Shown here piece by piece: positions 42,003 through 47,777 of a stretch of DNA of 64,000 bases. Made by a program: the position numbers and the translations under genes. Below the pieces are notes generated by a model. It did no database searches. It was not told the DNA's origin and saw nothing but the letters and a program-made list of their open reading frames with translations. The DNA comes from Bacteroidota bacterium (GTDB lineage Bacteria > Bacteroidota > Bacteroidia > Cytophagales > Spirosomataceae), in NCBI GenBank assembly GCA_020161355.1, contig JAIUOF010000001.1, positions 372,001 to 436,000 on the forward strand, given 5' to 3'. Numbering within the stretch: the stretch's first letter is position 1; every line of letters begins with the position of its first letter.

Positions 42003-42557
42003 TTAAATAAAATCATCTTCCAGATCATCTTCAAAATAGCGGCTACTTCCTATGAAATCGTCGTCACCACCTTTAGCGTTTTTGGCTGCAAGTTTTTTCA
42101 AAATGGCAATCTGACCGGCATGGTATAAATCATGATTGATGATCCCTGTCAATAAAGTGAAAAAGGTATATTCTGCCCCCGGAACTATCTTATTCAGAAA
42201 ATCATCAGTTTTGGTTTCCAGTTCTTTGATCAATTCATCATGACTTAAGGTAAGCTCCATCATGAGTGTCTCTAGCTCAAACTGGTCAATTTTTCCGATA
42301 TTTCCCCAGTTCAGTTTTTCGTCTTCAATCACATAGGCTTCGTCTCCCTGCATTTTTTTTACGGCAAAAATCCTCCAACTTGTGATATGGTAGATGAGCT
42401 CAGCAATATTATGTACGTTTCCAGCTTTGTAAGATACCTCCTTAACAGTAAGACCTTTGGTGAGCTCTAAAACTGAGGGACCATGCCACGCTCCGCCATG
42501 AAACGCAGAATTAAAAAGGTTTTTTAGGTTTTCGATATTGGTATTGGTATGTGCCAT
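42003..42557 (-). CDS. DinB-like (DUF664/YfiT-type) four-helix protein, copy 1
   Basis: 184 aa. DinB-fold metal-binding helix bundle: HGGAWHGPSVLEL (about 20-32), IAELIYHITSWR (about 46-57) and INHDLYHAGQIAILKK (about 138-153), where the spaced histidines would bind one metal. An acidic tail (DDDF...EDDLEDDF) is absent from the second copy. Members include thiol-dependent transferases, but most have no assigned role. Follows a paralogue with only 10 bp between the genes, an old tandem duplication. Confidence 0.88.
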   Translation of the reverse strand: MAHTNTNIENLKNLFNSAFHGGAWHGPSVLELTKGLTVKEVSYKAGNVHNIAELIYHITSWRIFAVKKMQGDEAYVIEDEKLNWGNIGKIDQFELETLMMELTLSHDELIKELETKTDDFLNKIVPGAEYTFFTLLTGIINHDLYHAGQIAILKKLAAKNAKGGDDDFIGSSRYFEDDLEDDFI

Positions 42558-42567
42558 AGCGATAAAT

Positions 42568-43032
42568 TTACTGCCACAACACCCAAATCATCCCCAGATG
42601 ATAGGTGTCATGCTGAATTATTCCATTTAATAGTTTATAAAAATTATAATATTCTCCGGGTACATTTCGCTCCAAAAGGTCATCATCATAGCTCTCGAGG
42701 CGGTCAATCAATTCATTGTGACTCTTTTTAAGATTTTCAACCAGAATCTGAAAGTTTTCAGCTTTAGTATCTTCAGCTTTTCCCCAGTTGTCTTCCTCAG
42801 TTTCGAGACTGTAATGTATGTTGTCGTTTAGTTTCTCCAGGGCAAACTTCCTCCATGCCATCAGATGAAAAACATGCTGAGCAATTGTTTCGCTGGAAAA
42901 CTGCTGTTTTTGGGTGACCTTCTCCAAGGGTAAGCTGTTGACGATTTCCATAACAGATGGACCATGCCAGGCGTCTCCTCTGAAAACGGTGTCGAGATTG
43001 TCGATGATGAGTTCTAAAGCTTTTTTGCTCAT
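42568..43032 (-). CDS. DinB-like four-helix protein, copy 2
   Basis: 154 aa, paralogue of the downstream gene. Shared motifs: GDAWHGPSVMEI (about 19-30), IAQHVFHLMAWRKFALEKL (about 48-66), SHNELIDRL, and IQHDTYHLGMI (about 138-148), keeping the metal-site histidines. Between the copies identity is moderate and mostly in these motifs, so the duplication is not recent or the genes diverged fast. Cytoplasmic, function unknown. Probably the promoter-proximal gene of a two-gene operon. Confidence 0.88.
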   Translation of the reverse strand: MSKKALELIIDNLDTVFRGDAWHGPSVMEIVNSLPLEKVTQKQQFSSETIAQHVFHLMAWRKFALEKLNDNIHYSLETEEDNWGKAEDTKAENFQILVENLKKSHNELIDRLESYDDDLLERNVPGEYYNFYKLLNGIIQHDTYHLGMIWVLWQ

Positions 43033-46096: not shown

Positions 46097-46204
46097 TTTA
46101 TCGGCTATATGACCGATAAATGGGATTATCGTCTCCTAAGCCGATAATTTAAAATATCGTCTCTGGAACCGATAATTAAGAATATCGGTTTATTAGGCGA
46201 TATT
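46097..46204. promoter_or_regulatory. Operator array: four 28-bp repeats, eight half-sites
   Basis: Half-sites alternate in orientation: TTTATCGG 46097, CCGATAAA 46113, ATTATCGT 46125, CCGATAAT 46141, AATATCGT 46153, CCGATAAT 46169, AATATCGG 46181, GCGATATT 46197. Equivalent half-sites recur exactly every 28 bp. Read one way these are four 24-bp palindromes with an 8-bp centre; read the other way, three 20-bp palindromes CCGATAAT-N4-ATTATCGG plus an end half-site on each side. The array ends at the -33 box of the SatD-like gene promoter, which is where a dimeric or cooperative regulator would bind. Confidence 0.85.
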
Positions 46205-46236
46205 TTTGGAAAAACAATATCTGTTGTATATATTTG
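46203..46236 (+). promoter_or_regulatory. Promoter of the SatD-like/DUF3307/VF530 operon
   Basis: -33 box TTTTTG (46203-46208), 20-bp spacer, -7 box TATATTTG (46229-46236), then ATG at 46255. The last operator half-site (46197-46204) overlaps the first two bases of the -33 box. Confidence 0.78.
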
Positions 46237-46254
46237 AATGTTTTTAAAACAAAA

Positions 46255-46857
46255 ATGGAAGCAATAATAACAGGCGATATCATAAATTCGAGGAAAGTAA
46301 GTCCTGACGACTGGCTGCCTGCCTTGAAGTCTGTATTGAAAAGATACGGCAAAGAACCCAAAAACTGGGAGATTTACCGCGGCGATAGCTTTCAGTTAAA
46401 TACTGCAACCATCGATGCCCTTGAGGTTGCAATCAGAATTAAAGCCGAGATAAAACAATGGGCGGGCCTGGATGTGAGACTGGCTATTGGGCTGGGGGAA
46501 GTAACCTATCGCAGTGCCAAAATCACGGAATCCAACGGTACGGCTTTTCTAAACTCAGGAGCGTGTTTTGATGAGCTAAAAAAGCAGACTTTGGCCATAA
46601 AAACTCCCAATAAAGACCTTGATGCTGCACTGAATGTGATGCTGTCGTTGGTGACTTTGACCATGGAAAGATGGACAGAAACCTCAGCAAAGCTGGTTAA
46701 ATTAAAACTGGACCACCCGGAAGCCAATCAAATGGAAATAGCAAAAAAAATCGGGAAAGATGGGCAGAGCACGATAAGTGAAGGCCTGAAAAGGGCAGGA
46801 TACGATGAAATACAAAAGGTATTGGACTACTATAAACTCAAAATCCAAAGCTTATGA
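46255..46857 (+). CDS. SatD-like protein with C-terminal helix-turn-helix
   Basis: 200 aa from ATG at 46255; an ATG at 46234 falls in the -7 box. The N-terminal domain (AIITGDIINSRK..., about 2-13; YRGDSFQLN, about 43-51; RLAIGLGEV, about 76-84; AFLNSGACFDEL) matches the SatD family and recalls nucleotide-cyclase-like alpha/beta domains. The C-terminal ~45 residues (LDHPEANQMEIAKKIGK, then QSTISEGLKRAGYDEI) form a good HTH. It is thus a candidate sensor-regulator that binds the 28-bp repeats just upstream and controls its own operon; this is inference. DUF3307 starts 4 bp inside its end. Confidence 0.8.
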   Translation: MEAIITGDIINSRKVSPDDWLPALKSVLKRYGKEPKNWEIYRGDSFQLNTATIDALEVAIRIKAEIKQWAGLDVRLAIGLGEVTYRSAKITESNGTAFLNSGACFDELKKQTLAIKTPNKDLDAALNVMLSLVTLTMERWTETSAKLVKLKLDHPEANQMEIAKKIGKDGQSTISEGLKRAGYDEIQKVLDYYKLKIQSL

Positions 46858-47558
46858 CTGAATTTGTCCTGAAACTCATTCTGGCTCATATTTTGGGTGA
46901 TTTTATGCTTCAACCCGACAAGTGGGTGGCCGATAAAAATCGCAAAAAGCACAAGTCAAAGTATTTGTATTTTCATGTGGCGATACATGCTGCTTTGTTG
47001 TGGGTACTGTTGCAATTTGAATTAAAATATTGGGCGGTATTCTTGATTATTCCCTTGTCTCATTTAGTCATTGACTGGACGAAACTGTATTTTCAGGGAA
47101 AAATGGAGCCCAGAAAACTCTTTATTATTGATCAGCTTTTACACCTGCTCGTAATATTTTTGGTTACAAAAATCTATTTTGAATTCAGGATAGATTACCT
47201 GATTTTACTACAAAAGAAATGCTTGCTTCTTTCAATTGCTTTTATATCAATTACTTATATAGCTTCAGTGGTGATTAAGTTGTTGATTTCAAAATGGAAA
47301 CAGGAAAACGAAACCACGAATGCTGCAGGCAAATACATAGGCATGATGGAAAGGATTCTGGTTTTTGTTTTCATAGTACTCAACCACTGGGAAGGTGTCG
47401 GTTTTTTATTAGCAGCCAAGTCGGTTTTCCGGTTTGGAGACCTTACCAAAAGCCACGAAGTCAGGCTTACTGAATATATTTTGATAGGCACATTGCTAAG
47501 TTTCGGAATCGCCATTGCGGTGGCTTTTATTTACCAAAAACTCTTAAAAATTATTTAA
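46854..47558 (+). CDS. DUF3307 membrane protein
   Basis: 234 aa, about six hydrophobic segments. Opening KLILAHILGDFMLQPDKWVADKNRKKHKSKYLYFHVAIHA is the DUF3307 hallmark, with His/Asp residues that might bind a metal or substrate; LSHLVIDWTK (about 64-73) and IDQLLHLLVIF (about 90-100) repeat the pattern. Inner-membrane protein of unknown function, coupled to the SatD-like gene by an ATGA overlap. The pair is, to my knowledge, recurrent in bacteria, which suggests a shared function. Confidence 0.88.
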   Translation: MTEFVLKLILAHILGDFMLQPDKWVADKNRKKHKSKYLYFHVAIHAALLWVLLQFELKYWAVFLIIPLSHLVIDWTKLYFQGKMEPRKLFIIDQLLHLLVIFLVTKIYFEFRIDYLILLQKKCLLLSIAFISITYIASVVIKLLISKWKQENETTNAAGKYIGMMERILVFVFIVLNHWEGVGFLLAAKSVFRFGDLTKSHEVRLTEYILIGTLLSFGIAIAVAFIYQKLLKII

Positions 47559-47777
47559 ATGGATCCATTACATGGCATGACGCTGGAAGCCATTCTCAGG
47601 TATCTGGTCATAAAAATGGGCTGGAACGCCATGTATGCACAGGTCAAAATCAATTGTTTCAGAATAGACCCCAGTATTAATTCTTCTTTGACTTTCCTCA
47701 GGAAAACACCATGGGCCCGCAAGAAAGTTGAAGATTTGTATATCAAAGAGGTCAAAAAAGATGCTTCTAAAGTCTGA
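47559..47777 (+). CDS. VF530 family DNA-binding protein (DUF2132)
   Basis: 72 aa, starting directly after the DUF3307 stop. The whole chain matches the VF530 pattern: PLHGMTLEAILRYLVIKMGW, INCFRIDPSINSSLTFLRKTPWARKKVEDLYI. These small helical proteins bind DNA in vitro (structure from Vibrio fischeri); their role is unknown. It ends 6 bp from the convergent phospholipase D-like gene with no hairpin in between. Third gene of the operator-controlled operon. Confidence 0.9.
   Translation: MDPLHGMTLEAILRYLVIKMGWNAMYAQVKINCFRIDPSINSSLTFLRKTPWARKKVEDLYIKEVKKDASKV

Follow-up and report, generated by a model that had tools for sequence, protein, structure and literature searches.

Four phased dyads lie directly upstream of a satD-like gene in a Lacihabitans-type genome. 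All coordinates are those of the analysed window, a stretch of 64,000 nucleotides on a 1.2-Mb contig; the nearest named relatives of the genome are Lacihabitans species. The array has helicase, satD, DUF3307, and VF530 genes as neighbours. The satD-like gene (46255–46857, plus strand) encodes a 200-aa protein with a palm domain and a C-terminal helix-turn-helix (HTH), as assigned with PF16264, AlphaFold2, and Foldseek/VIA. The codons for its recognition helix, residues 171–180, lie at 46765–46794 (plus strand), as placed by the AlphaFold2 model and by the covariation of residues 171, 173, and 176. The SatD family (PF16264) takes its name from the sat operon of Streptococcus mutans. The satD stop is overlapped by the gene for a polytopic membrane protein, DUF3307 (46854–47558, plus strand; PF11750, E 7e-29), and directly 3' of this follows the gene for a VF530-family small DNA-binding protein (47559–47777, plus strand; PF09905, E 1e-30). 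The VF530 gene is probably co-transcribed with DUF3307; its membership of the satD module is not shown. An Rfam scan of the region gave no credible RNA family, only one sub-threshold snoRNA match inside coding sequence. Elsewhere in the window, two adjoining similar genes of ~154 and ~184 aa on the minus strand (42003–43032), possibly DinB-like, seem to have arisen by tandem duplication.

The array comprises four 20-bp dyads of the form TATCG-N10-CGATA. By direct reading, TATCG starts at 46099, 46127, 46155, and 46183, and CGATA at 46114, 46142, 46170, and 46198; both series confirm the exact 28-bp period over four units that the initial annotation had claimed. Dyad 1 (TATCGGCTATATGACCGATA, 46099–46118) was also returned by the dyad-chain finder, as were dyad 2 (TATCGTCTCCTAAGCCGATA, 46127–46146), dyad 3 (TATCGTCTCTGGAACCGATA, 46155–46174), and the promoter-proximal dyad 4 (TATCGGTTTATTAGGCGATA, 46183–46202), which were also seen in other computed scans; none is assigned a strand. 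Other details of the annotation needed correction. Its unit starts (46097 and onwards) keep the period, but they mark the ends of 8-bp arms, 2 bp outside TATCG. Its half-site spacings of 16 and 12 bp alternate as described, but the 5-mers measure 15 and 13 bp from start to start. Its dyad, CCGATAAT-N4-ATTATCGG, has an axis that falls in the linker and is not the one that relatives keep; theirs is TATCGGCT-N4-AGCCGATA, with axes here at 46108.5, 46136.5, 46164.5, and 46192.5. The array scores 74.2, against a maximum of 29.9 among dinucleotide shuffles pooled over loci and of 23.7 among 12 shuffles of the region with the period left free from 20 to 40. Chance or AT-rich composition was rejected as the source of the array.

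A putative Bacteroidota promoter directly follows the array, in line with the initial annotation. TTTG (46205–46208, plus strand), 2 bp past dyad 4, is a putative -33 element that fits the Bacteroidota promoter form TTTG / TAnnTTTG. It is separated by 20 bp from a putative -7 element of the TAnnTTTG type, TATATTTG (46229–46236, plus strand), found by direct reading. Across satD genes, TAnnTTTG has a density of 8.6/kb in the last 80 bp upstream, compared with 1.0/kb farther up. A genome-wide pattern scan found no second occurrence of the two-unit pattern elsewhere in the 4.8-Mb genome, and single TATCG-N10-CGATA sites number only nine (two for the reversed control pattern), four being the array itself and the other five scattered. 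The site therefore looks dedicated to the satD-like promoter. Separately, we note an isolated near-perfect dyad, TATCGGTCTGAACACCGATA, outside the array (L191; G000:C13:231796-231815), which is possibly a second target or a chance occurrence.

The N-terminal domain of the SatD-like protein adopts a palm fold. We call the protein SatD-like because its match to PF16264 (E 9e-5, 22.6 bits) falls under the 29-bit curated cut-off; among aligned relatives, 23 of 27 match at E<=0.01, the best at 1.5e-12. In the AlphaFold2 model (pLDDT 91), residues ~1–137 have the fold of nucleotidyl cyclases, GGDEF domains, and the Cas10 palm (Foldseek E 4e-4 to Ma1120; VIA Z ~8–9). A profile search of PDB sequences gave only weak HTH matches and one weak match to Ma1120. 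D8 and D44, in the motifs TGD and RGDSFQ, are invariant and stand where a metal-binding Asp pair is expected, judging by motif and position without superposition. The Asn and Arg of class III cyclases (G-x-x-[VT]-N-x-A-x-R) have no conserved counterpart, N or R, in G95-x-A97-x3-S101-G102, with the register set by motif. From these features we infer that the N-terminal domain is a nucleotide sensor, not an active cyclase.

Little has been recorded about these proteins. The naming of the SatD family after an acid-tolerance operon is cited in PMC10326533. Apart from such naming, open-access full text yielded no DNA-binding role or operator for SatD, and no function was found there for DUF3307. 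NCBIfam returned no match for SatD, DUF3307, or VF530, and neither did PADLOC, where a new defence system would not match anyway. SatD relatives were absent from the phage records searched.

Dyad arrays are widespread upstream of satD-like genes. We collected 167 of these genes from Bacteroidota and scanned the 200 bp upstream of 166 for repetition at any lag from 12 to 70 bp, with no sequence or period assumed. Repetition was significant in 129 of the 166, with a best lag of 29 in 58 and of 28 in 52; the remaining best lags were mostly multiples (56–58). Control regions gave 11 (farther upstream), 0 (coding), and 8 (downstream) significant cases and no peak at 28/29. The dyad-chain finder placed 142 of the 167 loci above the 99% shuffle level. 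The initial annotation had held that homologous loci without the repeats would refute its reading, but arrays occupy the same place with a period of 28 or 29 in 139 of the 167 (P=29 in 74, P=28 in 65), whereas periods in shuffles are flat over 26–31 with no preferred value. The majority of arrays consist of three or four units (range 2–6), and the 28- or 29-base rhythm recurs in related genes of more than a hundred species. The annotation had also thought such arrays rare for small chromosomal operons, which may be true of operons generally; within the satD family, however, they are usual. No array was detectable in a GC-rich satD clade (family code f18) and a few others, nor in a GC-rich Sphingomonas satD copy. 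Clade f18 (L125, L128, L129, L131, L132, L134, L135, L137, L138, and L140-L142) has a near-invariant recognition helix, RQA[VI]GDSL.RAHW.

The period of the arrays is conserved across the family, but the letters of the half-sites are not. Half-sites include TATCGG, TATCTG, TATCGT, TATAAG, TATTAG, TATTAC, TATTCC, TATAGC, TATGCA, TATATG, ATCAAC, and ATTGGC, among others, and they differ even between paralogues within one genome (L076/L173, L087/L155, and L120/L152). Because the half-site varies between lineages, a search for an exact motif would miss most arrays. Measured on bases 1–6, the centres of the two half-sites of a dyad are 14 bp apart, and those facing each other across the linker are separated by 14 bp (P=28) or 15 bp (P=29); half-sites thus alternate in orientation at almost even steps along the array. 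This near-even alternation suggests protein contacts along the row and cooperative binding, which is an inference. The length of the loop before the HTH correlates with the period (9 residues with P=29 in 47 of 48 cases). We dropped this as evidence, since only about two loop changes occurred on the tree, and keep it as a lead only.

Half-site bases follow the residues of the SatD recognition helix. All proteins were aligned and, for 56 representatives nonredundant in the N-domain, we determined which protein column was most informative for each half-site base. Residue 171 came top for bases 1–3, residue 173 for base 5, and residue 176 for bases 4 and 6. With 35 representatives the top columns were unchanged, except that 171 tied with 179 at base 3, where a single variant then remained. 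At base 7 the signal was weak and scattered, at base 8 the recognition helix gave no signal, and neither base was led by 171, 173, or 176. These three residues are positions 1, 3, and 6 of the helix that residues 171–180 form in the AlphaFold2 model. Relatedness alone would lift all columns alike, and does not explain why these helix positions stand out. The covariation strongly supports the earlier proposal that the C-terminal HTH binds the array as its operator, in the absence of binding data.

The residue-base pairings are chemically sensible, Gln going with A, Arg with G, Glu/Asp with C, and Lys/Arg with the G opposite C. Q171 accompanies A2 in 111 of 111 cases, while proteins without Q171 never have A2 (10/10); R171 accompanies G2 in both of its cases (2/2). 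At the other positions, E/D176 occurs with C4 in 29/30, K/R176 with C6 in 26/28, Q176 with G6 in 44/48, and A173 with A5 in 56/59. There are several exceptions, such as Q176 with TATCGT (L009) and K176 with TATCGC (L116). Among protein pairs with less than 30% N-domain identity, the whole 6-mer is shared in 45% if the trio of residues agrees and in 9% if it does not. A tree-based sign test on independent pairs was nearly all concordant, with only 2–5 supported pairs per residue-base trait, too small a number to reach significance. Proteobacterial plasmid copies bear similar arrays, and two of them obey the Bacteroidota code. The Vibrio lentus protein (T,T,K) has the half-site tTTAGC, like that of a Bacteroidota protein with the equal trio (L133, ATTAGC), and the Pseudoalteromonas protein (R,N,K) has tGTAAC, with G2 and C6. 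The Segatella copy, whose translation was in a wrong frame, was left out of this comparison.

The operator thus sits at the satD-like gene's own promoter, and its specificity follows the recognition helix, as judged from covariation, not binding. On this evidence the SatD-like protein almost certainly binds its own promoter and, in the absence of expression data, probably controls it. With high confidence, we read the array as a local autoregulator's operator, on which SatD dimers are inferred to bind the dyads cooperatively and to repress satD and DUF3307, probably under the control of a ligand. The array with its phase and conservation, the residue-base covariation, the gene neighbourhood, and the fold are what computation shows. 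In the mechanism that we propose, the C-terminal HTH would bind the array with one inferred dimer per 20-bp dyad, and residues 171, 173, and 176 would read bases 1–6 of each half-site. With the period fixed at 28 bp (29 bp in other loci), neighbouring dimers would stay in phase, and they may then bind cooperatively as a row and shut RNA polymerase out of the adjacent promoter; both cooperation and repression are inferred. SatD would thereby restrict the production of itself and of DUF3307, the membrane protein co-transcribed with it. A nucleotide or metal-nucleotide is the probable ligand of the palm-fold N-terminal domain, and it would switch DNA binding; the ligand is again inferred.

The sign of this control is less certain than the binding. 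Relative to the axis of the last dyad, the -7 box lies at -19 (in the linker), +10 to +12 (at the edge of the last dyad), or +31 to +42 (the array abutting the -33 element), depending on the clade. In every one of these arrangements, SatD on its array would cover part of the polymerase site or lie next to it, and autorepression is therefore our best guess. A SatD row upstream of the -33 element could instead recruit RNA polymerase and activate, and this is not excluded where the array abuts that element: the Lacihabitans array occupies a position open to an activator, with ~40 bp between its last dyad axis and the -7 centre downstream, an arrangement kept in the relatives L002-L005. Activation nevertheless remains unlikely, given that a -7 box in the linker between the last two dyads or directly on the last dyad, as in other clades, suits occlusion, and that a single sign is likely within one family.

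Other identities for the array fare worse. As SatD binding lacks any experimental demonstration, some other regulator encoded in trans might bind the array, with SatD merely the regulated gene. We give this very little credence, since half-site bases follow the recognition-helix residues above any other SatD column, and a foreign regulator would not produce the differing half-sites of paralogues in the same genome. The initial annotation had likened the array both to plasmid iterons and to the sites of multi-dimer autoregulators; covariation upholds the latter likeness, and the former fails for want of a Rep protein and for the tie to a promoter. If the array were an iteron or a partition site belonging to a plasmid or an integrated element, its regular repeats would be accounted for, and satD-DUF3307 pairs do also occur on small plasmids, but the present array is on a 1.2-Mb contig with no adjoining Rep gene, and arrays adjoin the satD promoter whether they are on a chromosome or a plasmid. 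Furthermore, Rop is present on the small Enterobacteriaceae plasmids, and the Klebsiella plasmid has its own typed ColRNAI replicon, which leaves this origin highly improbable. Dyads are also inverted repeats and could form hairpins in a transcript. The promoter, however, lies downstream of all four, which would place them outside the satD transcript, Rfam offers no credible match, and half-site sequence tracks protein residues; an RNA element is hardly conceivable.

The pairing of satD with DUF3307 extends beyond this locus. The two genes adjoin in 159 of the 167 loci, and they co-occur on plasmids of Gammaproteobacteria, Alphaproteobacteria, and Bacteroidota. They are the main cargo of the E. 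coli plasmid pEC34A (L185, 3770 bp) and of a Klebsiella plasmid (L183, 4424 bp); no match to the Enterobacter pair emerged when E. coli genomes were searched at the DNA level. DUF3307 has highly conserved residues (H12, D16, H41, H70, D74, D93, H97, E166, and R167), and its conserved His, Asp, and Glu residues lie in or near membrane helices, which suggests a membrane metal-dependent enzyme. Its model is of middling quality (pLDDT 71), and Foldseek gave no significant match and no recognisable solved relative. Enterobacteriaceae DUF3307 is ~100 residues longer than that of Bacteroidota. On a Sphingomonas insulae plasmid (L187, 1-5441), satD-DUF3307 stands amid TIR-domain, HTH/ImmA-IrrE, and Pycsar-effector/cyclase genes, a defence-island setting.

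The pair is unevenly distributed, occurring in 119 of the 392 genomes sampled across the phylum and in 7 of 10 from the genus. Patchy and plasmid-borne occurrence fits a defence or addiction module. It is possible, though we offer this only tentatively, that SatD-DUF3307 is an undescribed mobile module for defence or plasmid addiction, in which a nucleotide-sensing row of SatD dimers frees a membrane-enzyme effector, DUF3307, on a signal. If so, the fixed 14-14(15)-bp spacing and the drifting letters would insulate copies in the same cell.

The autoregulator reading turns an uncharacterised family into a readable DNA-recognition system: its array geometry is fixed, its residue-to-base code is simple, and its natural protein-operator pairs number more than 100. 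It also offers a first way into the function of SatD and DUF3307, which occur together in about one-third of the sampled Bacteroidota genomes. The occurrence of satD-DUF3307 on a 3.8-kb E. coli plasmid makes the system immediately testable there. Naturally insulated regulator-operator pairs might find use in genetic circuits.

The proposed system overlaps with several known ones. LacI-, TetR-, and Xre-type regulators and antitoxin autorepressors are local autoregulators with operators of their own. These likewise place an HTH protein beside its own palindromic operator, and their helix residues and operator bases co-change. They usually have one or two dyads, however, whereas the satD family has two to six at a fixed 28/29-bp period with diverging sequence, and the palm/cyclase fold of its sensor domain is unlike those of LacI-, TetR-, and Xre-type autoregulators. 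With the SatD family (PF16264) the SatD-like protein shares its overall make-up, but its 22.6 bits fall short of the 29-bit cut-off. The fold of residues ~1–137 is shared with class III nucleotidyl cyclases, GGDEF domains, and the Cas10 palm, but the SatD-like domain is fused to an HTH and has no conserved equivalent of the catalytic Asn/Arg found in class III cyclases. Plasmid iterons have phased repeats in common with the satD array; these are direct repeats, whereas the array consists of dyads, tied to a promoter and without a Rep protein. The searchable literature holds no description of this SatD operator system. Autoregulators with matched operators are already known, while a multi-dyad array that keeps its phase as its letters drift, coupled to a palm-fold sensor, is new as far as that literature shows.
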